52,415 nucleotides of DNA from Cyanobacteriota bacterium (lineage in GTDB: Bacteria; Cyanobacteriota; Cyanobacteriia; PCC-6307; Cyanobiaceae). Positions 35,735 through 48,818 of this stretch are shown one piece after another (position 1 is the first letter of the stretch; each line of letters starts with the position of its first letter). The translations under genes and the position numbers were made by a program. Below the pieces are notes generated by a model. It worked only from the letters and a program-made list of their open reading frames with translations. It made no database searches and was not told the DNA's origin. The stretch is from positions 1 to 52,415 of the forward strand of contig JAPLIB010000163.1 of NCBI GenBank assembly GCA_026389335.1, written 5' to 3'.

Positions 35735-37051
35735 TCAATCGGCAGCGCCAGCTCCCTGAAGGTTGGCGCCGTGCTGGTGTCTGGGTGGGGCCGGTAAGCG
35801 CAGACTGCTCAGCCACGACAGGGCCACCAGCAGGGCCGAGCACCAGAGGCAGGCCTGCATGCCGCCTTGCAGGTACACCCAGCCCGAGCCGAGGGTGCCC
35901 AGCAGGCGACCGGCCGCATTGGCCATGTAATAGAAGCCAACGTTGAGACTCACCGATTCAGCGTCGGTGTAGGCCAGCACCATATAGCTGTGGATTGAGG
36001 AATTCATGGCAAACACCACCCCGAAGGCCGCCAAGCCCAGCACGAGCGCTAATCCGGGATGGGCCACCTGGCGCCAGAGCGCCAAGGCGATCAGGGCTGG
36101 AATCGCGGTGAGCAGGGCACTCCAGAACTGAACCGCCGCCGGGCCCGGCGGGGCCTTCTGGCCCCAGCTGCGGCGCAGGGAGGGGGCCGCGCCCTGCACG
36201 ATTCCGTAGCCGATCACCCAAAGGCCCAGGAAACCGCCCACCTCCCAGAAGCGCCAGCCCAGGTTGGCCTCCAGAAACACCGGCAAGGCCACCACGAACC
36301 AGACATCGCGGGCGGCGAAGAGAAACAAGCGGGCCAGCGACAGGATGTTGATTCCTTCGCTCTTGGCGAATAGCGCCGCCAAACCAGGCTTCTGTTTCAT
36401 TTTGCCGATCTCCCCCGGCAGCACCAGGGTGCCGACCAGGGCCAGCGACAGACCGGCCGCCAGGGCCGCCAGCGATCCGGCGAAGCCCAGGGTGGCCAGC
36501 AGCCCACCGCCGAGAAAAAAGCCCACCCCTTTGAGGGCGTTTTTGGAGCCGGTGAGTAGCGCCACCCATTGGAACAGCTGCTGTTCGCCTCTGGCTTCGC
36601 CAGGGGTTTCAGGCACCACGGTTTTGATGGCGCTCTTGGCGCTCATCTTGTTGAGATCCTTGGCGATGCCGCTGATTGCCTGGGCCGCCATCACATAGGT
36701 GACACTCAGCAGCCGGGGCCAGCTGGCTGATACCGGAATCAATAGCAGCAGGGCACCGATCTGCAACACCAGGCCAGCCCAAAGGGTCAAGCGCAGGCCG
36801 AAGCGGGCCCCCAGCCAGCCGCCGTAGAGGTTGGTGACAATGCCGAAGAACTCGTAGAACAGAAATAGAAAGGCAATCTCCAGTGTGGAGTAGCCGAGCT
36901 GGTGAAAGTGGAACAGCACCAGCATGCGCAGGGCGCCATCGCTGAGTGTGAAGGCCCAGTAGGCCCCAGTTACCACCAGATACTGCTGCAGGGCTGAGAG
37001 CGGAGCCCAAGCAAGTGGTGGCACTGAGGGGGGCTGCGGTTCAGGGCGCAT
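35735..37051 (-). CDS. arsJ: Organoarsenical efflux permease ArsJ
   Basis: A 438-residue MFS transporter with about twelve spans. The N-terminal region [20 protein letters not shown], then [21 protein letters not shown], and [17 protein letters not shown] near residue 135 are typical of ArsJ. ArsJ exports 1-arseno-3-phosphoglycerate made by the partner GAPDH, which detoxifies arsenate. It overlaps the end of the GAPDH gene by 11 bp (or 26 bp if the upstream ATG at 37066 is used), so translation is coupled. The C-terminal 30 residues are polar. Regulated with GAPDH, presumably by the divergent arsR. Confidence 0.92.
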
Positions 37052-38066
37052 CGATTCGGGCCACATGGCAGGCCAGATCCGCCAGGCGGCAGCTGTAGCC
37101 CCATTCGTTGTCGTACCAGGCGTAGACCTTGAGCTGGGTGCCGTTCACCACCAGTGTGGAGAGCCCATCGACGATGGCGCTACGGGAATCATTGACGTAG
37201 TCCACCGACACCAGCGGCCGGGTTTCGTAACCGAGAATCCCGGCAAGGGGACCGTTGGCGGCGGCTTCAAAGGCGCCATTCACCGCTTCGCTACTGACGC
37301 TGCGCTCCAGTTCGAACACCGCGTCGGTGAGGGAGGCATTGAGCAGCGGCACGCGCACGGCATGGCCGTTGAGCTTGCCCGCCAGTTCGGGGAAGATCAG
37401 GCCGATCGCCCTGGCCGAGCCGGTGCTGGTGGGGATCAGGCTGTGCAGGCAGGAGCGGGCGCGCCGCAGGTCGGATTTCAGGGCATCCACCACCACCTGG
37501 GTGTTGGTGACGTCATGGAGCGTGGTGATGGAGCCATGGCGAATGCCAAAGCTTTCCTGTACCACCTGGACCACGGGGGCCAGGCAATTGGTGGTGCAGG
37601 AGGCGGCCGTCAGCAGCCGATGGCGATCGGGGTCGTACAGCTGGTGGTTGATGCCGAAGACCACATTCAGCGCCTCCTCGCCGGCAATCTGTCCCTGTAC
37701 CGGGCAGGCCACGATCACCCGCCGCAGGCCGGCGCTGTCGAAGTAAGGCTGCAGGGTTGCCGGGGTTTTGCGCCTGCCGCTGCATTCGAGCAGCAGTTCA
37801 ACCCCGGCCTGGCGCCAGGCCACGGCGGTGGCGTCCTGTTCCTGGCAGTAACGGATGGGTTGGCTGTCAATCGAAAACCCACCGGGATGCGCTTGCACGG
37901 TTTGCGGCCAGCGGCCATGGACGGAATCGAAGACCAGCAGATGGGCGGCACTGGCCGCATCACCACCGGGGTCGTTGACTTGCACCAGCTCAATGCCGGG
38001 CCGCCCCCAGAGGGCACGAAACACCAGGCGACCGATGCGACCGAAGCCGTTGATGCCGATTTTCAT
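37041..38066 (-). CDS. ArsJ-associated glyceraldehyde-3-phosphate dehydrogenase
   Basis: A 341-residue [25 protein letters not shown] is the NAD site, [10 protein letters not shown] holds the catalytic Cys near residue 157, and the C-terminal [12 protein letters not shown] is conserved. [14 protein letters not shown] after the second strand is typical of the version paired with ArsJ. In arsenate stress it makes 1-arseno-3-phosphoglycerate for export by ArsJ. The start at 38066 places the fold at once; the frame extends 12 codons upstream without conservation. It is divergent from arsR with 45 bp between the starts, where an operator-like repeat is found. Confidence 0.93.
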
Positions 38067-38107
38067 CGCAGGATGGGCGCAGCAGGCCCCGAACCCCCGC
38101 AAAATAA

Positions 38108-38130
38108 ATCAATGAGAGTTGATGCATCAA
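38108..38130. promoter_or_regulatory. Candidate ArsR operator
   Basis: ATCAA (38108-38112), six bases, then TTGATGCATCAA (38119-38130), itself a perfect 12-bp palindrome. ATCAA-N6-TTGAT resembles inverted repeats bound by ArsR-type repressors. The arsR ATG (38112) lies inside, so binding could block arsR and the divergent GAPDH-arsJ pair together. Confidence 0.55.
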
Positions 38131-38465
38131 GGTCAGCCACTGCCGGCTGTGTTCTGGATCACCCTTTGGCCCATGAGCAGGCCCGCGCCCTGCTCAAAGC
38201 CTTGGCCGATCCCCTGCGCCTGCGGGTGATCGAGGCTCTCGGCCGGGGGGAGCGCTGCGTCTGCGAACTCACCGATGAGCTGGGCCTGGCCCAATCCAAG
38301 CTCTCCTTTCACCTCAGGGTGCTGAAGGACGCGGGCCTGCTCGAAGCGCGGGAGGAGGGCCGCTGGATCTACTACCGCCTTGAGCCCACAGCCATGATCG
38401 CGCTGCAGGACTGGCTCGGCCAGCTGGCCACCGGCTGCCGAACCCCAGCTCCGCCCTGCTGCTGA
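38112..38465 (+). CDS. arsR: ArsR-family arsenic-responsive repressor
   Basis: A 117-residue winged-helix repressor. ALADPLRLRVIEALGRGERCVCEL carries the Cys-x-Cys (about Cys49 and Cys51) arsenite site, here shown in part, followed by the recognition helix LAQSKLSFHLRVLKDAGLL and the wing EEGRWIYYRL. The tail ends CRTPAPPCC, with extra Cys. It should repress the divergent GAPDH-arsJ pair, itself and ACR3 until arsenite binds. Upstream frame is open but the fold starts here. The last 57 bases are part of the 145-bp direct repeat whose second copy lies before ACR3. Confidence 0.93.
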   Translation: MRVDASRSATAGCVLDHPLAHEQARALLKALADPLRLRVIEALGRGERCVCELTDELGLAQSKLSFHLRVLKDAGLLEAREEGRWIYYRLEPTAMIALQDWLGQLATGCRTPAPPCC

Positions 38466-38553: not shown

Positions 38554-38577
38554 CGGGACGGCATTGATAGGGTTTGA
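38515..38577 (+). pseudogene. Truncated ACR3 5' end
   Basis: ATG at 38515 starts MAKPAPTRPGPIARDGIDRV and stops at TGA 38575-38577. The first 14 codons match the ACR3 start at 40704 (MATPTPTRPGPIARG); the homology then ends. A remnant of the junction copied on the left of the DUF4114 gene. Confidence 0.7.
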
Positions 38578-38596
38578 CCAGCAGCCGAGGAACTTC

Positions 38597-40528
38597 GTGG
38601 CCATACGCTTCACCCCTCTGGCGGATCCGCTTCTCCGGTATGTCAATACTAGTCGCGCCGATCTCTCGGGGACTACGGCCAGTCTCCTGACTCCGATCAA
38701 CTACAATGCTGATATTTTCGCGGCCACTCCTACACTTCTCACGGGAAACTACGGCTTCGAGGGCTACCTAGGCATTCCAGGCCTGAGCGGTACCGGAACA
38801 ACAGCCCAAGCCACGGCCGCCGCCAACAATGTGGCCTGGCAAAACATCGATCCCTCCCTCAACGCCGCCCAGCGGGCCTACAGCTCGGCCGTCTCTGATA
38901 GCAACGCCCTGTCCGTCTACGGGCTGCCGTTGCTGCGCGCCGACACCCTGCCGTTGGTGTTCAGCCATCCCGTGTTGCCCACCAACCTGAACGGATCGGA
39001 TTTCAGGGTCACCCTCAGCAACGGCTCGGTGGTGACGCCCCAGACCGCAGCCTTCTCGCCGAATCTGGAATTCAACGAACGCCAAACGGTGGTGCTCGTC
39101 GGAGAGTTCGGGAACCGCCTACAGCCCGGGGATCCAGGAGCGCTTTATCCCACTTTGGTCACAGTCGTCAACGACGGAAGTCCCCTGGAGCTGCTCACCC
39201 GCAATGGACCGGTTACAGCCGTTGGTTTGAGTGTTGCCAGCTCCAATTCCTACGTCAGCGGAAACGGTCCAAGGGTGGTGGCCGCCAAATTGAATCGCTT
39301 CAGCAACCTGGGCGAAGGGGGACCCGTCGGCATCAGCCTGGCTTCCCAGTTCAATAGCGGCGGCGATCTCTACGGAGATCAGGCCCAGTTCAGGCTGCGC
39401 TTGTACATCAGTCTCGGCTTCTCCCCGGATGGCATCGCCAGCCTGCTGCCCAGCGAATTCTCCCGCTATTTCGTGCTGGAGGCCATCGCAGAGGATGGCT
39501 CCAAGATCACGATCAGCCAGGCTGGCACACCCGTACAGATTGGCAATCTGGGCGTGATCGAAGTGGTGGGCCTGGCGGATCTTGCCCAGGCCGGCACCCC
39601 CGAGAACGCCGCCTATGTGGAAGACCACGACAACTACTACGACATCATCTTGAAGGGTGACATTGCCGCCATCTCCCGGTTGTCGGCCGTGCGCATGCCC
39701 TCCTCCGGCTCCTATCAGGCGGTGTACGACCCTGGTGGCCCGGGGAATGATCCCGGCGCGCCCGGCGCAGCGCCCGGCCCCTTCACCGTGGCCAGCAGCG
39801 ATCACACTGTGGTGATCACCCCCGACCTGGAAGGCAGGGCGCTAGCGACGTTTGTGGAGGTGGAGGGGCCGGTGCTGCGCAACCCCTTCGATGGCCGGCC
39901 GATCGGCAGCTTGTTAGGGGTGGCGGTGGAGGACACCGAGACCGGCCAGCGGATCAACGCCTTCCGCGACCCCGAGGGCCCGCTCTTCTACAGCAGCTTC
40001 GCCCCGGCTTCCGACCAGGCCACCTCCCTTCCGGCGGGCCGCAGCCAGACCGACCCGATCGACCTGATCGACACCCGCGCCTTCACAGCGAGCAGCAGCG
40101 TCACGGTCAGTGGCTCCCTGAGCCGTTCGGCGGAATATGGCTCCACCCTGCAGTTCTACGCCGTGCTCGATCAGGCCGGAACGATTCAAGATCCCCTCAC
40201 CGGTCAGGTCCTCCAGCCCGGGCATCCGGGCTATCGCCAGGCCGCATTGAGCGCCACCAACCTGGTGACTGCGGCCGGATCCAACCTCAGCGCACCCAAC
40301 CTGGAGGTGCTGCCCTTCGCCTTCAGCGTCAGCGGCGGCCAGTTGTTCGCTCCGGTGTTGACTGTTTATGCCACCGGAGGCGTGTACTTCTCCTTCGGCG
40401 CCGCCAACCTGGATCGTGTCAGCCATTTCACCGGCTACGGCCCAAACCGTTACGGGATCGAGGATCTGGCTGGGGGCGGCGACGATGATTTTGATGACCT
40501 GATCGTTCGCTTCAACCTGTCGGTCTGA
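38597..40528 (+). CDS. Large DUF4114-ending protein inserted in ars locus
   Basis: A 643-residue acidic protein, rich in Ser, Gly, Thr and beta strands. Its last 70 residues (VYFSFGAANLDRVSHF, then YGIEDLAGGGDDDFDDLIVRF) match DUF4114, a C-terminal module of cyanobacterial surface proteins that probably binds calcium with its Asp-rich loop. A Pro/Gly linker (PGGPGNDPGAPGAAPGP) near residue 390 divides two halves. No classic signal peptide is visible; export by a type I system is possible. The GTG at 38597 is chosen because AGGAA is 5 bases before it; TTG at 38564 would lie in repeat-derived DNA. It splits arsR from ACR3 and has no known link to arsenic. Confidence 0.8.
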   Translation: MAIRFTPLADPLLRYVNTSRADLSGTTASLLTPINYNADIFAATPTLLTGNYGFEGYLGIPGLSGTGTTAQATAAANNVAWQNIDPSLNAAQRAYSSAVSDSNALSVYGLPLLRADTLPLVFSHPVLPTNLNGSDFRVTLSNGSVVTPQTAAFSPNLEFNERQTVVLVGEFGNRLQPGDPGALYPTLVTVVNDGSPLELLTRNGPVTAVGLSVASSNSYVSGNGPRVVAAKLNRFSNLGEGGPVGISLASQFNSGGDLYGDQAQFRLRLYISLGFSPDGIASLLPSEFSRYFVLEAIAEDGSKITISQAGTPVQIGNLGVIEVVGLADLAQAGTPENAAYVEDHDNYYDIILKGDIAAISRLSAVRMPSSGSYQAVYDPGGPGNDPGAPGAAPGPFTVASSDHTVVITPDLEGRALATFVEVEGPVLRNPFDGRPIGSLLGVAVEDTETGQRINAFRDPEGPLFYSSFAPASDQATSLPAGRSQTDPIDLIDTRAFTASSSVTVSGSLSRSAEYGSTLQFYAVLDQAGTIQDPLTGQVLQPGHPGYRQAALSATNLVTAAGSNLSAPNLEVLPFAFSVSGGQLFAPVLTVYATGGVYFSFGAANLDRVSHFTGYGPNRYGIEDLAGGGDDDFDDLIVRFNLSV

Positions 40529-40654: not shown

Positions 40655-40742
40655 GCACCCTCCCCTTCCAGCAGCCCCGAACAACCACCAGCTCCTGATT
40701 CCCATGGCCACCCCTACCCCCACCCGACCAGGTCCGATCGCC
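40598..40742 (+). repeat. 145-bp direct repeat, copy 2
   Basis: Second copy of the arsR-ACR3 junction; the offset to copy 1 is 2189 bp throughout, without gaps. Here ACR3 continues intact. Confidence 0.9.
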
Positions 40743-41798
40743 AGGGGCAGCGAGGCAGCGGCACGCTTGCCGTGGCTGGATCGGCTGCTGCCGCTCTGGA
40801 TCCTGTTGGCGATGGCGGCAGGCCTGTTGCTGGGTCGGCTGGTCCCCGGCCTGCAGGGGCTCCTGGGCATGGTGCAGGTGGGGCATACCTCTCTCCCCAT
40901 CGCCCTCGGCCTGCTGCTGATGATGTACCCGGTGCTGGCCAAGGTCCGCTACGGCGAGCTCGGCTCCATGGCCCGGGATCGGCGCCTGCTGACGATCACC
41001 CTGGCCCTCACCTGGGGCCTGGGACCACTGCTGATGTTCAGCCTGGCCTGGTTGTTCCTGCCGGATCAGCCGGCCTTCCGCACCGGGCTGATCCTGATCG
41101 GCATCGCTCCCTGCATCGCCATGGTGTTGATCTGGATCGATCTTGCCCAGGGAAACCGGGAAGCGGCCGCCCTGCTGGTGGCGATCAATTCGATCCTGCA
41201 GGTGTTGATCTATGCGTTGCTGGGCACTTTTTATCTGCAGATTCTGCCGACCTGGCTGGGGCTCGACACCGAAATCGTGCGCTTCTCCTTCGGAGAGATT
41301 GCCCGGGCGGTGCTGATCTTTTTGGGGATTCCTCTGGTGGCTGGCTTCCTCACCCGTTGGATCGGAGTCCGTCTCAAGGGGCCTCGCTGGTACGAGCAGG
41401 TCTTTCTGCCGCGGATCGGGCCCTGGGCTCTCTACGGCCTGCTGTTCACGATCGTGGTGATGTTCGCCCTGCAGGGTGAGGCGATCACCTCGGATCCAGT
41501 TCAGGTGATCCGAGTGGCCATTCCGTTGCTTCTGTACTTTGTGCTGATGTGGGGCATCGCGTTCGCGGTCGGCAAGCGAAGCGGCCTCGACTACCCCCGC
41601 ACCTCGGCCCTGGCTTTCACGGCAGCGGGTAACAACTTCGAGCTGGCGATTGCGGTGTGCATCAGCATCTGGGGTGTCGCCTCCCAGCAGGCCCTGGCTG
41701 GGGTGATCGGTCCGCTGATTGAAGTGCCGGTGCTGGTGACCCTGGTGTACGTGTCGCTCTGGTTGCGGGGCTTGTTGTTCCGCTCTGCGGAGGGCTGA
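40704..41798 (+). CDS. acr3: ACR3-family arsenite efflux permease
   Basis: A 364-residue membrane protein with ten spans. LLMMYPVLAKVRYGEL near residue 75, LIGIAPCIAMVLIWIDLAQGN near residue 132 (part), with the functional Cys, and SALAFTAAGNNFELAIAV near residue 300, with the conserved Glu, are ACR3 motifs. It extrudes arsenite using the proton gradient. In its usual place it would follow arsR directly; here a 2-kb insertion separates them, so its transcription may depend on read-through or a new promoter before 40704. It converges on the SQR gene with 218 bp between the stops, in which I see no gene. Confidence 0.95.
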   Translation: MATPTPTRPGPIARGSEAAARLPWLDRLLPLWILLAMAAGLLLGRLVPGLQGLLGMVQVGHTSLPIALGLLLMMYPVLAKVRYGELGSMARDRRLLTITLALTWGLGPLLMFSLAWLFLPDQPAFRTGLILIGIAPCIAMVLIWIDLAQGNREAAALLVAINSILQVLIYALLGTFYLQILPTWLGLDTEIVRFSFGEIARAVLIFLGIPLVAGFLTRWIGVRLKGPRWYEQVFLPRIGPWALYGLLFTIVVMFALQGEAITSDPVQVIRVAIPLLLYFVLMWGIAFAVGKRSGLDYPRTSALAFTAAGNNFELAIAVCISIWGVASQQALAGVIGPLIEVPVLVTLVYVSLWLRGLLFRSAEG

Positions 41799-42016: not shown

Positions 42017-43366
42017 TCAGCTACACCCCCCCGGGGCCTGGGCTTGCCACTGCTCCAGATCCGCTGCCGGGCGGTAAGCAAGCCCGAGGGCCTGCACCAG
42101 CGGCGCCAGGGGCTGAAGGTAACGACCCTCGTGGGGTGCTCCCTTCAGCACCCGATTCCAGTAGATCCAGGGCAGCAGTTTGGTCTTGAGCAGCCAGAAG
42201 CTCCAGCGTTCCCGGGTGGGATCGACCAGAAAGGTGCTGACTGGCTGCAGGGAGTAGTCAAACTCGGCCAGCAGCACCGAGCCGTAGCCCGTGATCAATG
42301 GGCAGACGGTGTAGCCGTCGTAGCGGCTGTTCAGGGGCTGACCGGCGAGGTAAGCCAGCAGGTTGGCCGCCAGGACGAAGGCGGCCCCCCGGGCGGCACC
42401 GGCGGTGCGAGATGTTGGCAGCGAAGAGCCATCTCCTGCCGCAAACACATTGGCGTAGCGCCGATGCTGGGTGCTGAAGGGATCCACCTCAACCCAGCCG
42501 CCGGGATCGTCACCGGCTAGGGGGCTGCTGGCGACGACCGCAGGCGCGCCCATCGGCGGCACCACATGCAACATCGCGAACGGGATCGCCTCCGTAGTGG
42601 TGCTGCCATCGCTCGCCGTCACCTCAAAGATGGCGACCTGCTCTGCCGCGCGCACCTCCCGTAGGTTGTGGCGCAGGCGCACCTCAATGCCGCGGCGCTG
42701 AATCACCCGGTGCAGGCTGCGGGCATAGGCCGGAATCGCGAACAGGGAGGCACCGGCGGTGCAGAAGATCACCCGACTGTTGACCCCGACTCCGCTCTTC
42801 GCTTTGAAATGGTCGTCCGCCAGGTACATCACTTTCTGGGGCGCCCCACCGCATTTGATCGGAGTTTCAGGAACGGTGAAAATCGCCGTGCCGCCTGAAA
42901 AATGCTGGATCGTCTCCCAGGTGTAGGCAGCGAAGCTGCTCCCATAGTTGCTGCATACGCCCTGCTGGCCAAGGGCCTGGGGCAAGCCCTTGATGCGCTC
43001 CCAGAAGCACTGCAGGCCCGGTGTCAGCACCAAGACGTCGTAGACGATCACGTCGCCATCGCTAGTGTGGACGCAGCTGTGCTCGGGGTCAAAGCCCACA
43101 GCAGCGGCGCGCAGCCAACGACAGCCCTTGGGGATCAGATCCGCCTGATCGCGGCGAGTCTGCTCGAGATGGATCAGGCCAGCGCCCACCAGGGTGAAGC
43201 CAGGTTGATACCAGTGGTCGGGGCTGGGTTCGAGGATCGTCAGCGCCAAGTGGGGCCGCTGGCGCAACAGCAGGTTGGCCACCGTGAGGCCAGCGGTGCC
43301 AGCGCCGACGATCAGGACCCGGGGCGGACCACTGGCATCGCCATCCATGCCGAAGCTTGGTGACAT
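42017..43366 (-). CDS. sqr: Type II sulfide:quinone oxidoreductase
   Basis: A 449-residue flavoprotein. VLIVGAGTAGLTVANLLL is the FAD site near residue 18. TPIKCGGAPQKVMYL holds Cys near residue 172 and YDGYTVCPLITGYGSVLLAEF (in part) Cys near residue 355: the two redox cysteines and flanks of type II SQR, like mitochondrial SQOR. It oxidises sulfide and passes electrons to the quinone pool at the cytosolic face of the membrane. The C-terminal amphipathic region ERWSFWLLKTKLLPWIYWN fits membrane contact. ATG at 43366 is chosen over a TTG three codons upstream; ATG 43348 is also possible. It follows psbA on the same strand, behind a terminator. Confidence 0.88.
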   Translation of the reverse strand: MSPSFGMDGDASGPPRVLIVGAGTAGLTVANLLLRQRPHLALTILEPSPDHWYQPGFTLVGAGLIHLEQTRRDQADLIPKGCRWLRAAAVGFDPEHSCVHTSDGDVIVYDVLVLTPGLQCFWERIKGLPQALGQQGVCSNYGSSFAAYTWETIQHFSGGTAIFTVPETPIKCGGAPQKVMYLADDHFKAKSGVGVNSRVIFCTAGASLFAIPAYARSLHRVIQRRGIEVRLRHNLREVRAAEQVAIFEVTASDGSTTTEAIPFAMLHVVPPMGAPAVVASSPLAGDDPGGWVEVDPFSTQHRRYANVFAAGDGSSLPTSRTAGAARGAAFVLAANLLAYLAGQPLNSRYDGYTVCPLITGYGSVLLAEFDYSLQPVSTFLVDPTRERWSFWLLKTKLLPWIYWNRVLKGAPHEGRYLQPLAPLVQALGLAYRPAADLEQWQAQAPGGCS

Positions 43367-43446
43367 CACAGTCAAAACTCATGCCCTCATCGTGGTTGCG
43401 TGTTATGGCGTACCTACCCGCTGGTCAAAATCAGCGAACACCAATG

Positions 43447-43470
43447 AAAAAGCCCGGAATGAATCCGGGC
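43447..43470 (-). terminator. Factor-independent terminator of psbA
   Basis: Read on the minus strand: GCCCGGA, loop TTCAT, TCCGGGC, then TTTTT. Perfect 7-bp stem and a T5 run, 82 bp beyond the psbA stop. It separates psbA from sqr, so sqr probably has its own promoter between 43367 and 43446. Confidence 0.88.
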
Positions 43471-43551
43471 GGAGCACCGCCAGGCCGCTATCGGGTAGCC
43501 GAAGCGAGCCGATGCTCATTCAGGGATGGCTGGGCGAGAGTCAAAGTCTCA

Positions 43552-44631
43552 CTAACCAATCGCCGGGGCTGTCAGGGCCACAGGCTGGGAGGCGATGGTT
43601 GCCAGATCGAGGGGGAAGTTGTGTACGTTGCGCTCGTGCATCGCCTCAATGCCGAGACCGCCACGGTTGAGCACATCGGCCCAGGTGTCGATCAGTCTTC
43701 CCTGGTGGTCGAGAATCGAGTGGTTGAAGTTCAGGCCGTTGAGGTTGAACGAGAAGCTCACCACGGCCAGGGCGGCAAACCAGATGCCCACCACCGGCCA
43801 GGCGGCCAGAAAGAAGTGCAGACTGCGGCTGTTGTTGAAGGAGGCGTACTGGAAGATCAGCCGACCGAAGTAGCCATGGGCGGCGACGATGTTGTAGGTC
43901 TCTTCCTCCTGGCCGAATTTGTAACCACGGTTCTGGGATTCGTTTTCGGTGGTTTCACGCACCAGGGAGCTGGTGACCAGGGAGCCGTGCATGGCCGAGA
44001 ACAGGCTGCCGCCGAAAACGCCGGCCACACCGAGCATGTGAAAGGGATGCATCAGCACATTGTGCTCGGCCTGGAGCACCAACATGAAGTTGAAGGTGCC
44101 GGAGATTCCCAGGGGCAGGGAATCGGAAAAAGAGCCCTGGCCGATGCCATAGACCAGCAGCACCGCGGTGGCGGCTGCCACGGGGGCGGAATAGGCCACC
44201 GCAATCCAGGGGCGCATGCCTAGCCGGTAGCTGAGTTCCCACTCCCGGCCCATCCAGCAGAAGATGCCGATCAGGAAGTGGAAGATGATCAGTTGATAGG
44301 GGCCACCGTTGTAGAGCCATTCGTCGAGGCTGCTCGCTTCCCAGATGGGATAGAAGTGCAGGCCAATGGCATTGCTGGACGGCACAACGGCCGCTGTGAT
44401 GATGTTGTTGCCATAGAGCAGGCCACCGCTCACGGGTTCCCGCACGCCGTCAATGTCAACCGGTGGTGCGCCGATGAAGGCGAGCACAAAGCAGACCGTG
44501 GCAACGAGCAGGCAGGGAATCATCAGCACCCCGAACCAGCCCACATAGAGGCGGTTGTCGGTGCTGGTGATCCAGTCCTGGAAAGATCTCCAGGGGTTAC
44601 CCCGGGAACGGGACAGGGAAGTGGTCGTCAT
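43552..44631 (-). CDS. psbA: Photosystem II D1 protein, D1-prime type
   Basis: A 359-residue thylakoid protein that aligns without gaps to standard D1. Ligands of the oxygen-evolving cluster are all kept: Asp170, Glu189, His332, Glu333, His337, Asp342 and Ala344; so are Tyr161, His190, His198, His215, Ser264 and His272. Position 130 is Glu. The substitutions Ala80, Leu158 and Ala286 replace Gly, Phe and Thr of ordinary D1, and these three positions define D1-prime, a form induced in low oxygen in several cyanobacteria. Gly162 replaces Pro next to Tyr161, and Ala144 replaces Cys. It is monocistronic, with its own terminator, and is divergent from the DUF3122 gene. Confidence 0.95.
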
Positions 44632-44749
44632 GGCAGGTCAGGCGCGGTGGGATCGAAAGGCAAAGGACAAAGCTGGCAAGCGCAGCGCAGCCCTTCGTCA
44701 ACCCCGAACAACGGGGCAGAGAAGCCCGTGACCGAGCTTCCATGGCTTG

Positions 44750-44783
44750 CGCATAACACGTTAGCGTTGAAAGCGCTTATGCG
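44750..44783. promoter_or_regulatory. Inverted repeat between psbA and DUF3122 gene
   Basis: CGCATAA (44750-44756) and TTATGCG (44777-44783) are exact reverse complements with 20 bp between, ending 12 bp before the DUF3122 start. It may bind a regulator or merely form a leader hairpin. Confidence 0.35.
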
Positions 44784-44795
44784 GTGAAAGGCAAT

Positions 44796-45461
44796 ATGGG
44801 ACTTTCTGCTCCTCTCGGTGGCCCGCTACGCGGCGGCCCGAGGCTCGCTCTGCGCTGGGTCGGCTGGAGAGCAGTTCTGGCAACTGTTCTGATGGGCTTG
44901 CTGCTGGCCCTGGCCCTGGTCCTGTCACAGCCGCTGCCGCTGCAGGCAGCCGACAGGTCGCCGGACTGGACGCTCCATGATTCAGCTGGTCGCCACTGGG
45001 GTCTGAACCTGTTAGTGGCATCCGATGCCACCGAGGCCTCCGGTTGGCGCCTGCGACTCCATGGCCGCTCCCCCGGTCTGAGACTGGATCATCAGCGGCC
45101 GCTGCGGCTGCGTGATGGCCTCGGCCACAGCTGGGAGCTGCCCAACCGCAGTGCTGAATTGGTGAGCGGCATCGGGGCTCTGATCCCGCAGTCATCGGCC
45201 CAATTCGATGCAATCGCCCTGGTGCCCAGGCCAAGCGAGGTGATTCCCCTCCAGCTGGCGATACCGCTCGAACCCGTCGACGAGCCAGCCGTCGATGGCT
45301 CAGCCATCGACCATCCAGCCATGGACCATCCAGCCATGGACCATCCAGTCATGGACAACGTAGCCGTGAACAACGCAGCCATGGACAGCACGGCCCTGGT
45401 GATGCTGCCACCCGAATTGGTCCGGGCCCTGCATGGCCTGCCAACCTCGCCCCGGAGCTAA
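44796..45461 (+). CDS. DUF3122 exported protein with internal repeat
   Basis: A 221-residue protein. After a basic lead there is one hydrophobic signal segment (AVLATVLMGLLLALALVL) with a cleavage-like LQAAD. The DUF3122-type core follows: DSAGRHWGLNLL, then LRDGLGHSWELPNRS. Residues about 170-190 are a low-complexity run of DHPAM units encoded by a 15-bp tandem repeat. Function unknown, probably lumenal or periplasmic. The ATG at 44796 has AAAGG five bases upstream, which decides it over the GTG at 44784. It precedes the ABC permease by 259 bp. Confidence 0.7.
   Translation: MGLSAPLGGPLRGGPRLALRWVGWRAVLATVLMGLLLALALVLSQPLPLQAADRSPDWTLHDSAGRHWGLNLLVASDATEASGWRLRLHGRSPGLRLDHQRPLRLRDGLGHSWELPNRSAELVSGIGALIPQSSAQFDAIALVPRPSEVIPLQLAIPLEPVDEPAVDGSAIDHPAMDHPAMDHPVMDNVAVNNAAMDSTALVMLPPELVRALHGLPTSPRS
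45311..45355 (+). repeat. 15-bp in-frame tandem repeat
   Basis: Three units (45311-45325, 45326-45340, 45341-45355), CCATCCAGCCATGGA, the last with one change. Encodes repeated D-H-P-A/V-M near the C-terminus of the DUF3122 protein. Confidence 0.9.
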
Positions 45462-45720
45462 CCACGCCTGCAGTGACCTCGTGGCCCGGTGTCGTCAGGT
45501 GCGGTGCTCCAGGGCGCTGCTCCCACCGCTGGGCTTGCTGCTGTCGGCTTCGGCGATGACCTGCGTCGGGGTCGATCGGGTGGCGACACGGTGCCGGGAG
45601 CAGTGGTCGACAGGCGGCCAGCCCCACACTTGTCAAGCCAGTCTCAAGCTGGCGCAAGGGGTTGTCGGCTGCAGCACCTGGACCGCTGCCTACAGTTCCG
45701 GTTCCCCTTGCCAGGCGGGC

Positions 45721-47448
45721 ATGAAGCCTCTGCCGCAACCCGAGGCGCTGCGCCAGCCGGCCGCCTTCGGGCTTGCTGATCTGGCCGTGATCCTTGGGGT
45801 GTTGACCCTGCTGACGCTGATCGCCCACGTGGGTGCCGGGGCGATGGTGAGCTTCCGGCCACCGGAGATCAGCCCCAGCATTTCGCTCGATCCCCGCAAC
45901 CTGCCGGACTATGCCGGCCGCTCAACCCTGCGCATGTTCATCGCTCTGGCGGCGTCCATGCTGTTCACCCTCGTCTACGGCTCACTCGCCGCCCATAACC
46001 GCCGGGCTGAACGGGTGCTGGTGCCCCTGCTCGACATCCTGCAGTCGGTGCCGGTGCTGGGCTTTCTCTCAATCACGGTGACTGGCTTCATCGCCCTGTT
46101 CCCCGGCAGTCTGCTGGGCTTGGAGGCGGCGTCGATCTTCGCGATTTTCACGAGCCAGGTCTGGAACATGACCTTCTCCTTCTATCAGTCGCTGCGCACG
46201 GTGCCCAAGGAACTCACCGAAGCCGCCAGCTTGTATCAGCTCTCCCGCTGGCAGCGCTTCAGCCGGCTGGAATTGCCCAGTGCCGCGATCCCACTGCTCT
46301 GGAACGCGATGATGAGCTTCGGCGGTGGTTGGTTTTTCGTGGCCGCCAGTGAGGCGATCAGCGTTCTCAACCACGACTACACCCTGCCGGGGATCGGCTC
46401 CTACGTGGCCGCTGCTGTCAGAGCCCGCGATCTACCGGCTCTGGGTTGGGCCAGCCTGACGATGGCGGTGGTGATTCTGTTGGTGGATCAGCTGTTCTGG
46501 CGGCCGCTGGTGGCCTGGTCCGATCGCTTCCGCCTCGAGCAGAGCGGCTCCGGTGATGCCCCCGAATCCTGGGTGTTGGACCTGCTCACCACCGCGCGCG
46601 TGCCGCAGCTGCTGGGCACGGCCCTCGCGCCACTGGCCGATCGTCTTGATCTGCTGCTGTCCGCCTTGCTCGGCCGCAGCCAGGACAGCGTTGCCGAACC
46701 ACAGCAGGCCGGTAGTGATCGCCTGTTCAACCTCTCCCTGCTGCTGGTGAGCGCGGTGCTGGTGAGCGTGTTGGTGCATTTCGTGCTGGTGCGGGTGGGC
46801 ATCATCGAGGTGACCACCACCTTCTGGTTAGGCGTGCACACCCTGGGTCGCGTCACCATCCTGCTGTTGCTGGCCACCCTGATCTGGACGCCGATCGGCG
46901 TGATGATCGGCTTTCAGCCGCAGCTGGCGCGGCGTCTGCAACCTCTGGTGATGTTCCTGGCGTCGTTTCCAGCCAACTTCATCTTTCCCTTCGCCACCCT
47001 GTTCTTCATCCGCAACCACATCAGCCTCGACTGGGGTTCGATTCTGCTGATGGCTCTGGGCTCCCAGTGGTACATCCTGTTCAACTCGATCGCCGGCGCC
47101 CAGATGATTCCCTCCGATCTGCGCGAGATGGCTGATGACGTGGGCCTGCAGGGTCTGCAGCGTTGGCGCCAATTGATCATTCCCGGCATCTTTTCGGCCT
47201 GGGTCACCGGCGGCGTGACCGCCTGTGGTGGCGCCTGGAACGCCAGCATCGTTTCCGAAGTGGTGAGCTGGGGAGGCACCACCCTGCAGGCCGACGGCCT
47301 GGGGGCCTACATCGCCGACGCCACCACCCATGGCGACTGGCCCCGCATCGCCCTGGGGATCGGAATGATGAGTCTGTTCGTGGTGGGCTTCAACCGTTTG
47401 TTCTGGCGGCGCCTCTATGGCCTGGCCGAACGCCGTTATCACCTCTGA
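45721..47448 (+). CDS. Double-length ABC permease, NitT/TauT type
   Basis: A 575-residue membrane protein made of two fused binding-protein-dependent permease domains, about residues 60-270 and 360-560. Each has an EAA-like loop facing the ATPase: KELTEAASLYQLSRWQRFSRL (part) and SDLREMADDVGLQGLQRW. The sequence looks like nitrate/sulfonate/bicarbonate-type importers, but no substrate-binding protein gene is adjacent, so the substrate is unknown. The frame is open for another 96 codons upstream, but those are Cys/Arg-rich without conservation, so ATG 45721 (MKPLPQPEAL) is chosen. The ATPase gene follows by 59 bp. Confidence 0.88.
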   Translation: MKPLPQPEALRQPAAFGLADLAVILGVLTLLTLIAHVGAGAMVSFRPPEISPSISLDPRNLPDYAGRSTLRMFIALAASMLFTLVYGSLAAHNRRAERVLVPLLDILQSVPVLGFLSITVTGFIALFPGSLLGLEAASIFAIFTSQVWNMTFSFYQSLRTVPKELTEAASLYQLSRWQRFSRLELPSAAIPLLWNAMMSFGGGWFFVAASEAISVLNHDYTLPGIGSYVAAAVRARDLPALGWASLTMAVVILLVDQLFWRPLVAWSDRFRLEQSGSGDAPESWVLDLLTTARVPQLLGTALAPLADRLDLLLSALLGRSQDSVAEPQQAGSDRLFNLSLLLVSAVLVSVLVHFVLVRVGIIEVTTTFWLGVHTLGRVTILLLLATLIWTPIGVMIGFQPQLARRLQPLVMFLASFPANFIFPFATLFFIRNHISLDWGSILLMALGSQWYILFNSIAGAQMIPSDLREMADDVGLQGLQRWRQLIIPGIFSAWVTGGVTACGGAWNASIVSEVVSWGGTTLQADGLGAYIADATTHGDWPRIALGIGMMSLFVVGFNRLFWRRLYGLAERRYHL

Positions 47449-47507
47449 ACATCAGCCCCGACCCCTCGTTTGCGTCTGTTCTTTTGTGTCCATCCGCTCC
47501 ACTGGCC

Positions 47508-48818
47508 ATGGCTCTGATCACGGTTGAGAACGTTTCCAAGCGCTTTCCCTTGCCGGATGGCAAAGGCGAGTTCACCGTGCTGGGGGACGTGAGCCTGGCG
47601 GTGAAGGCCGGCGAAGTGGTGGCCCTGCTCGGGCGCAGTGGCAGTGGCAAAAGCACCCTGCTGCGGATCATGTCGGGTTTGATTCGCCCCAGCCAAGGTG
47701 TGGTGTGCAGCAATGGCCAGCCGCTGCGCGGGGCCAACCCCAACCTGGCGATGGTGTTCCAGAGCTTCGCTCTGCTGCCCTGGCTCACCGTGCAGGACAA
47801 CGTTGAACTGGGCCTGGCGGCCCGGCATGTGCCGCGGCAGCAGCGGCGCGAGCGGGCCCTCAAAGCGATCGACCTTGTCGGTCTTGACGGCTTTGAGAAC
47901 GCCTACCCCAAGGAGCTCTCCGGTGGCATGAAGCAACGGGTGGGTTTCGCCCGCGCCTTTGTGCTGGAGCCGGAGGTGCTGTTCATGGATGAACCATTCA
48001 GCGCCCTTGATGTGCTGACAGCTGAAAACCTGCGGGGAGAAATCGATGATCTCTGGAATGCCGGCACCTTCCCCTCCAAGAGCATCCTGATCGTCACCCA
48101 CAACATCGAGGAGGCCGTGTATCTGGCGGATCGGGTCGTGATTCTGGGCTCCAAACCCGGCCGTATCCGTGGGGAGCTGGCGGTGAATCTGCCTCGTCCC
48201 CACGACCGCAGCAGCCCACGCTTCAAGGCACTGGTGGATTACATCTATTCGGCGATGACCAACCCCGACATCGAGGTGAGCGGCGAGGTGGCCGGTCGCG
48301 AAAGGCTGCCCCACGCCCAGCGCCAGGCGATCTCCCCCTTTGCCAAGGCCCTGCCCCACGTGCGGGTCGGTGGGATCAGCGGCCTGCTGGAGCTGATTGC
48401 GGAGAAGGGAAAAGGGCTCGACGACATCCCGCTGCTGGCCCAGCGGCTGCAGCTGGAGGTGGATGATCTGCTGCCCCTGCTCGATGCGGCCGTGATGCTG
48501 GGCTTCGCCGAGGTGACGAATGGTGATGTGCGGCTCACCCCGATCGGCAGCGACTTTGCCACCACCACGATTCAACGCAGCAAGGACCTGTTTCGCCAGC
48601 AGGCGCTGGGCCGGATTCCGGTGCTCAGCAGCATCGTCCACACTCTGCAGGAGAAGGAGAATCAGGCGATGCGCGCCGATTTCTTCCTCGGCATCTGGGA
48701 TGACTACTTCCCCCTGGAGGAGGCGGAGCGGCAGTTGGCCACAGCGGTGGACTGGGGTCGTTATGGCGAACTGTTCGAATACGACGCCAGCGAAGGGCGC
48801 TTCCATCTGGCGCGCTGA
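47508..48818 (+). CDS. ABC ATPase with AAA-associated C-terminal domain
   Basis: A 436-residue protein. Residues 1-260 are a nucleotide-binding domain of the nitrate/taurine type: Walker A LLGRSGSGKST near residue 43, signature ELSGGMKQRVGFARA near residue 140, Walker B VLFMDEPFSALD near residue 160, and switch His in VTHNIEEA. Residues 300-436 form the AAA-associated C-terminal domain seen in a subgroup of these ATPases (VGGISGLLELIAEKGKGLDD, FFLGIWDDYFPLEEAERQL in part), likely regulatory. It pairs with the double permease. Confidence 0.92.
   Translation: MALITVENVSKRFPLPDGKGEFTVLGDVSLAVKAGEVVALLGRSGSGKSTLLRIMSGLIRPSQGVVCSNGQPLRGANPNLAMVFQSFALLPWLTVQDNVELGLAARHVPRQQRRERALKAIDLVGLDGFENAYPKELSGGMKQRVGFARAFVLEPEVLFMDEPFSALDVLTAENLRGEIDDLWNAGTFPSKSILIVTHNIEEAVYLADRVVILGSKPGRIRGELAVNLPRPHDRSSPRFKALVDYIYSAMTNPDIEVSGEVAGRERLPHAQRQAISPFAKALPHVRVGGISGLLELIAEKGKGLDDIPLLAQRLQLEVDDLLPLLDAAVMLGFAEVTNGDVRLTPIGSDFATTTIQRSKDLFRQQALGRIPVLSSIVHTLQEKENQAMRADFFLGIWDDYFPLEEAERQLATAVDWGRYGELFEYDASEGRFHLAR

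Follow-up and report, generated by a model that had tools for sequence, protein, structure and literature searches.

A D1-prime psbA gene beside a predicted sulfide:quinone oxidoreductase gene in a picocyanobacterium, a reduced member of a known association

Low-oxygen forms of psbA, the gene encoding the D1 protein of photosystem II (PSII), are known to occur near genes for sulfide:quinone oxidoreductase (SQR). Grim and Dick (2016) described 15 genomes with sqr close to a low-oxygen or anaerobic (group 2 or 3) psbA, including Geitlerinema, Cyanothece, Leptolyngbya and others, and regarded the link of this pairing to sulfide as untested (PMC5061849). Here, a similar pairing is described in a stretch of 52,415 nucleotides, referred to as the window, from a genome of the Cyanobiaceae (contig JAPLIB010000163.1 of assembly GCA_026389335.1; genome G000 below, 4.05 Mb in 171 contigs, 99.39% complete), where a psbA gene predicted to encode D1-prime, the group 3 form of D1, is directly followed by sqr. 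In the published set, sqr lies at most 19 genes from a group 3 psbA and the two window genes are adjacent; since such proximity was published in 2016, the window represents a picocyanobacterial variant of a known association (PMC5061849). The word Cyanobium is absent from that article, and its consulted sections do not contain the ordered locus with Tll0287, Kir, persulfide dioxygenase (PDO), TauE and cydAB that is found here in relatives. Judged from the sequences, the association is real and conserved and already known in kind, with the window as a reduced picocyanobacterial member. Other genomes are given below as G numbers, contigs as C numbers and further stretches as L numbers, and statements on published work refer to the sections of each article that were consulted.

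Several other described systems share parts of this arrangement. The psbA1-DUF2892-petC-rhodanese cluster of Acaryochloris and the slr1181-slr1185 cluster of Synechocystis, both associated with micro-oxic induction, resemble the locus of the relatives in combining a low-oxygen psbA, an alternative petC and a rhodanese gene (PMC5295598). However, these clusters as described lack SQR, whereas the window has SQR and no second Rieske protein (PetC2), and the same article cites the view that PSII containing its psbA1 product is unable to evolve oxygen, while the window D1 keeps its manganese ligands (PMC5295598). The sqr-petC2 and arsR-sqr-tauE clusters of Thermostichales and Gloeomargaritales likewise place SQR next to PetC2, ArsR and TauE, yet petC2 stands there beside a type I sqr, and no D1-prime is part of the clusters as described (PMC11304991). 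At the transcript level, psbA, petC, pdo, rhod and tauE of PCC 7002 rose in response to polysulfide (PMC12466478), and one Phormidium from a low-oxygen mat showed dominant type 3 psbA transcripts together with sqr transcripts (PMC8651085). Three further articles treat psbA or sqr without reference to adjacency (PMC5776472, PMC8002359, PMC12694226).

The window psbA (43552..44631, minus strand, 359 amino acids) matched TIGR01151 with 710.6 bits at a cut-off of 596. The aligned protein has A80, E130, L158, Y161, G162, D170, S171, E189 and A286, followed in its C-terminal part by H332, E333, H337, D342 and A344, and the manganese ligands D170, E189, H332, E333, D342 and A344 are thus all present. 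An earlier note made from this sequence had read Ala80, Leu158, Ala286 and Gly162 correctly and had rightly seen that the ligands are kept, but its wording can be read as counting the first three of these residues among the manganese ligands, whereas they are the D1-prime signature. This was seen in a comparison of 75 distinct rows (71 from genomes and 4 from PDB alignments, covering residues 80-333 with at least 60% identity), in which 42 rows have Ala80/Leu158 and Ala286 (Ser in one) and 33 have Gly80/Phe158/Thr286. Positions 80, 158 and 286 are the only columns of residues 1-344 without a residue common to D1-prime and standard rows, and the 7yq2 chain (Thermosynechococcus PsbA2) displays the D1-prime pattern at all three. 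A tree of 71 rows placed the window D1 inside a 27-row clade of the family (support 100/100), while the standard D1 of the same genome, encoded on contig C50, grouped with the 33 standard rows on a branch with support 81/97 (bootstrap correlation 0.982, not settled). The phylogeny that the earlier note had proposed as a check therefore places the window D1 with D1-prime and apart from the standard rows at that support. Together, residues and tree support the assignment of the window gene to D1-prime, the group 3 or microaerobic type.

Further psbA copies were inspected in the same comparison. A psbA piece on contig C139 of the window genome, 91% identical and tried as a second D1-prime, was rejected because Phe158 and Pro162 make it a standard type. 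The D1-prime of G014 (L084, 11528-12604) carries Gln at ligand position 332, being either a degenerate copy or a sequencing error, and a second D1-prime copy of the Gly162 type in G021 (L146, 1382-2458, contig C81) contains two in-frame TAG codons. A disrupted D1-prime remnant lies in G022 (L149, 8331-9309), a one-contig genome without clade A SQR (defined below), with PDO, rhodanese and TPMT genes nearby.

D1-prime rows also differ from standard rows at two prolines. Both Pro162 and Pro173 are present in 33/33 standard rows, while in 37 of the 42 D1-prime rows Pro162 is replaced (22 Ala, 11 Ser, 4 Gly) and Pro173 retained; the other five, the 7yq2 chain among them, retain Pro162 and have Met173. 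Hence, exactly one of the two prolines is replaced in every D1-prime row (42/42), never both and never none. As the tree points to a small number of independent events, perhaps two, this exclusivity is to be read as a pattern rather than a statistic. Two Mastigocoleus pieces with altered manganese ligands, which stand outside the 42, have Leu158, Ala286 and both prolines. The exchange P173M narrows the Cl-1 channel and has been linked to slow P680+/TyrZ kinetics (PMC9709244), with loss of crystal waters not reproduced in a computational study of 2025 (PMC12107152). For P162S in Chlamydomonas D1, modelling placed an extra hydrogen bond to the backbone of Asp170, and electron transfer efficiency was lower while oxygen evolution was retained (PMC3020971). 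A literature search on these positions found no publication joining 162 and 173 in the sections consulted, and the putative one-of-two replacement rule of D1-prime was not found in print.

The adjacent gene on the same strand (42017..43375, minus) starts 176 bp after the psbA stop if TTG is the start codon, or 185 bp if the ATG three codons later is used, the latter being the distance given in the earlier note. Its best match among solved structures is mitochondrial SQOR (6oi5, which we take to be the human protein) with E 1.6e-108 and both cysteines aligned, followed by a flavocytochrome c subunit with E 1.6e-19. The two redox cysteines and the FAD motif GxGxxG are present, and catalytic Cys175 and Cys358 are invariant across 16 aligned proteins; NCBIfam matches stayed below cut-off. 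Structure match, alignment and trees thus agree with the note that this is an SQR-family protein with both redox cysteines. It resembles type II enzymes and is a predicted sulfide:quinone oxidoreductase, the type label resting on its likeness to SQOR. In SQR trees of 59 and 65 rows, the D1-prime-linked SQRs of the family form a clade, termed clade A (98/92 and 99/93), which comprises 24 rows in the larger tree, has two subgroups of ~60% identity and includes every such SQR of the family that was placed. Clade B (32 rows, 100/100) includes the other SQR of the window genome on C37, and a third group (98/87) holds the SQRs of Oscillatoria, a Leptolyngbyaceae metagenome-assembled genome (MAG) and G245; G031 and Cyanobium ATX 6A2 sit on long branches. 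The clade B copy of the window genome (G000:C37:2035-3246) lies on a contig without any psbA found, and two genomes, G012 (L087, L099) and G032 (L069, L100), have clade A copies of both subgroups.

To judge how far the pairing extends, the search for other picocyanobacterial genomes with psbA near sqr, suggested in the earlier note, was carried out in 42 genomes of the genus, 20 of which have an intact full-length D1-prime; many contigs stop inside the loci. A clade A SQR was found downstream on the same contig and strand in 12 of these 20 genomes, at distances from 150 bp to ~23 kb: 150 bp in G029, 179 bp in G000 and G028 (measured between aligned ends), 1.4 kb in G021 and G032, 2.7 kb in G035, 3.0 kb in G041, 5.4 kb in G020, 10.6 kb in G013, 18.6 kb in G004, 20.0 kb in G025 and 22.8 kb in G018. 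In G012 and G040, both genes are present on contigs that end. Across the 42 genomes, 15 have both genes, 1 has only clade A SQR, 7 have only D1-prime and 19 have neither (Fisher p 2.3e-5, uncorrected for kinship). This table includes contig-end and partial copies, namely the SQR of G040 known from fragments (clade A in the tree) and the D1-prime of G038 (two contig-end pieces) and G002 (residues 46-359), and it counts G022 as lacking D1-prime, its copy being disrupted, and G017 as lacking clade A SQR, its fragment being unplaced. For the 27 clade B copies that the genus contributes to the tree, no D1-prime was seen within 25 kb on the contig concerned, although these contigs are often short. 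Judged by gene positions, the neighbourhood of D1-prime and SQR is more than chance.

In relatives, the two genes are part of a larger locus. In G041 (L089), D1-prime is followed by DUF4079, a Tll0287-like gene, PetC2, Kir (opposite strand) and SQR, and then by ArsR (opposite strand), PDO, a rhodanese-TM gene, TauE and c26. G038 (L090) has this gene set plus cydAB, with D1-prime represented by its 3' end only; G035 has the order D1-prime, Tll0287, PetC2, Kir, SQR, cydA, cydB; and in G015 D1-prime is followed by Kir, ArsR, PDO, rhodanese, TauE and c26, with SQR missing. A Kir-type potassium channel gene stands divergently beside SQR in many loci (e.g., L068, 12018-12908). Of 19 judgeable genomes with intact or partial D1-prime, 13 have PDO no more than 25 kb away from it. 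Cys42 and Cys100 are present in all 15 rows of the SQR-linked ArsR, for which we assume a likeness to the SqrR/BigR dithiol sensors; a BigR model matched it far below cut-off. Tll0287 is a heme protein associated with Thermosynechococcus PsbA2-PSII (Boussac 2013, cited in PMC4582080). There it is a biochemical finding, whereas here its family (PF11845) occurs in 14 of the 42 genus genomes and its gene adjoins D1-prime in 10, including G038 with its contig-end D1-prime pieces and G020 with a transposase and PetC2 in between, and not including the window genome. The placement of Tll0287 beside D1-prime was not found in print, and a literature search outside which most subscription papers lay returned neither this placement nor the picocyanobacterial locus.

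Beyond the genus, G412 and G415 have the order D1-prime, Tll0287, Kir, PetC2, SQR, and in G375 a truncated D1-prime is accompanied by a PetC2 piece, Kir, SQR, ArsR, PDO, rhodanese and TauE, with Tll0287 farther away. D1-prime lies upstream of SQR on one strand in these three as well as in a UW140 MAG and in Cyanobium sp. ATX 6A2, the latter also carrying Tll0287. When named genomes were scanned, 80 loci were obtained, of which 27 were cyanobacterial by title, and D1-prime was found inside the examined flank in 6 of the 27; proximity counts from D1 matches in other families are to be read as "at least". SQR is downstream in two UW140 MAGs (one being G028) and Cyanobium sp. ATX 6A2, and comes first in Leptolyngbyaceae M33_DOE_097 (contig of G218), Oscillatoria princeps RMCB-10 and Oscillatoria sp. 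HE19RPO, with an SQR of another clade 556 bp from D1-prime in O. princeps and 340 bp in HE19RPO. These comparisons support conservation of the neighbourhood within the genus, in Cyanobium sp. ATX 6A2 and in two further genera of the family, and they also support its recurrence, as D1-prime with sulfide-oxidation genes, in Oscillatoria and a Leptolyngbyaceae MAG. The G273 and G313 stretches contain D1-prime, ICMT, rhodanese and PetC2 without SQR, resembling the slr1181-slr1185 cluster of Synechocystis (PMC5295598). In G402, an untyped psbA lies 4.3 kb from SQR. Two contigs of Mastigocoleus testarum (L201 and L203, 9-680) encode a rogue-like D1 with E170, D332, Y337 and S344, located ~9 kb from an SQR-PDO-cydAB cluster.

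The intergenic sequences were inspected for signs of common control. A terminator-like hairpin on the minus strand (43452..43470; 7-bp stem with 6 G-C pairs and a U-rich tail) was detected by sequence scan between psbA and sqr. The scan gave 5 sites of this kind in 3.3 kb where 2.0 would be expected, and the fold of the hairpin is unexceptional compared with shuffles (z -0.84). Its stem is identical in G028 and apparently weaker in G029. The remaining stretch before sqr (43376..43451, minus strand) would have to contain the sqr promoter unless psbA is read through; a sigma-70 scan gave no match. A 16-bp palindrome, with both arms ATGCG-N6-CGCAT in 8 cases and one arm a base short in 5, precedes 13 of the 18 related SQR genes inspected, mostly at 108-123 bp (L070, L072, L076, L077, L087, L089, L090 and others), and 1 of 19 PDO genes. 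Shuffles gave 0.2/18, yet this contrast overstates its strength, as the pattern was picked after viewing the same SQRs, the controls were single-base shuffles and the rows are related. The palindrome is a possible candidate operator. No operator common to D1-prime and sqr was found, the palindrome being upstream of none of the 27 D1-prime genes.

How the two genes came to be neighbours, and whether this has functional meaning, can be weighed from these results. We consider it somewhat probable that the two genes represent, in reduced form, a picocyanobacterial locus for photosynthesis under low oxygen and sulfide, its members being coupled by common conditions and by selection for linkage rather than by one transcript or one operator. 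In such a locus, D1-prime would replace standard D1 when oxygen falls and sulfide is present, and PSII with D1-prime would still split water with altered P680/TyrZ chemistry. SQR could oxidise sulfide to sulfane sulfur and reduce plastoquinone, thereby protecting the manganese cluster and feeding cytochrome b6f and photosystem I or a terminal oxidase, while the dioxygenase, rhodanese and TauE, encoded on contig C6 in the window genome, may dispose of the sulfur. Several observations weigh against this explanation. Six of the 20 genomes with intact D1-prime have no clade A SQR (G006, G008, G009, G011, G014, G015), the stretches fetched for G009 and G014 have no sulfur genes of the locus near D1-prime, and, outside the family, the D1-prime stretches of G420, G286, G438, G212 and G402 (17-19 kb) are without any partner gene; conversely, G031 possesses clade A SQR but no D1-prime was found there, and G375, which is not of this genus, has a clade B SQR at a distance of 24.2 kb from its truncated D1-prime. 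Polysulfide treatment of PCC 7002 lowered sqr, whereas psbA, of a type not seen in the article, rose (PMC12466478). The remaining counterpoints come from the window genome and its control signals. A PF11845 search of this genome gave no match, it has one PetC only, and contig C6 carries its Kir, ArsR, PDO, rhodanese, TauE and c26 genes, for which reasons the window is seen as a reduced or broken-up locus. The palindrome is missing upstream of the window sqr, as it is in G028, G004, G412 and G415, besides being absent from D1-prime genes, and the hairpin stands between the two genes. For a co-transcribed operon, sequence predictions thus offer an intervening hairpin and no common palindrome, which weakens a single transcript or common control for the low-oxygen/sulfide module of the earlier note, whereas its neighbourhood of D1-prime and sulfide oxidation stands. 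The hairpin, the missing palindrome, the loss of DUF4079, Tll0287, PetC2 and Kir from between the window genes and the position of the sulfur genes on C6 would all suit an account in which rearrangement or deletion alone brought the genes together, with D1-prime serving low oxygen and SQR general sulfide detoxification independently. We regard this account as unlikely, for the wider linkage holds in several genera and in both clade A subgroups, which are ~60% identical, and recurs in other families in a different order.

The arsenic genes next to the pair bear on two further accounts. Past sqr, the window holds acr3 for an arsenite efflux transporter (40704..41798, plus strand; TIGR00832, above the NCBIfam cut-off), an unnamed protein, arsR of the ArsR/SmtB family (38112..38465, plus; NF033788), the gene for the ArsJ-associated glyceraldehyde-3-phosphate dehydrogenase (GAPDH; 37041..38102, minus; NF033735) and arsJ for an organoarsenical efflux transporter (35735..37066, minus; NF033734). 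The last two are above curated cut-offs and mark an ArsJ arsenate-resistance block. The window ArsR has a CVC motif, presumably an As(III) site, and is distinct from the SQR-linked ArsR of the relatives. Genes for arsJ occur in 38 of the 42 genus genomes. Among 20 arsJ stretches inspected, six of them (G008, G022, G013, G024, G040, G003) preselected for a visible nearby psbA, 12 have psbA 0.7-6.9 kb from arsJ (6 of the 14 not preselected), and these psbA comprise 5 full standard genes, 4 pieces with Thr286 and 3 too short for typing. In the stretches concerned (L168-L173, L175, L179, L181, L185-L187), the block consists of arsJ, GAPDH and mostly arsR. Near D1-prime, arsJ was found in G000, G028 and G011, with the block in differing orientations, and at ~20 kb in G029 and ~12 kb in G375. 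Such counts would fit psbA copies acting as recombination hot spots at which sqr, sulfur and arsenic blocks accumulate without functional meaning, as would G026, where sulfur genes and arsJ stand beside the end of a standard-type psbA. We find this improbable, because clade A SQR does lie near D1-prime while, among the matches listed and on contigs that are short, the clade B SQRs of the genus all lack a psbA within 25 kb, and because the consulted sections of Grim and Dick report group 1 or 4 psbA without nearby sqr (PMC5061849). The earlier note had proposed a joint module in which sulfide and arsenic genes are placed together because both occur in reduced waters; sqr is indeed found with ars genes elsewhere (PMC5061849, PMC11304991), and G000, G028, G011 and G375 have arsJ close to the locus. 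This version is nonetheless very improbable, and arsenic coupling was rejected as the reason for the neighbourhood: arsJ is nearly universal in the genus irrespective of D1-prime or clade A SQR, the nearby psbA is standard in 9/9 typed cases, and orientation varies between lineages. Being a common psbA neighbour, the block is unspecific to D1-prime or SQR, and on gene order it is a separate, incidental neighbour. In L186 (G026:C50), TauE, rhodanese, a PDO piece, ArsR and a Kir piece lie between the standard-type psbA end and arsJ-GAPDH.

A wider proposal is possible, if doubtful. D1-prime, Tll0287, DUF4079, the second Rieske protein PetC, SQR and cytochrome bd may constitute one alternative electron-transport chain for sulfidic, low-oxygen water, encoded by a locus whose order can change across cyanobacteria. 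The loop at TyrZ and the Cl-1 channel of its D1-prime would be reshaped interchangeably by loss of Pro162 or by Pro173 to Met, slowing water-splitting so that PSII survives while SQR supplies electrons. A review of 2014 described the physiological significance of D1-prime PSII as unclear (PMC4582080). A neighbourhood joining D1-prime to sulfide oxidation, a Tll0287 relative and an alternative Rieske protein would give D1-prime a concrete, testable role in picocyanobacteria. The linkage hints at use of this photosystem variant in the presence of sulfide, and the neighbourhood has a bearing on the question of how oxygenic phototrophs dealt with sulfidic water.

Upstream of psbA, the divergent intergenic region (44632..44783) contains a CAACGCTA block, noted by eye, which in a by-eye comparison recurs upstream of many other D1-prime genes. 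It separates psbA from the gene for a DUF3122 protein (44784..45461, plus strand; Pfam PF11320), which is the divergent neighbour of D1-prime in most family loci fetched as well. The unnamed protein in the gap between arsR and acr3 (38564-40528) has 654 amino acids and a counterpart in G011 that is 93% identical. On the other side, a nitrate/taurine-type ABC transporter (45433-48818) comprises a two-domain permease and an ATPase with a C-terminal AAA-associated domain.

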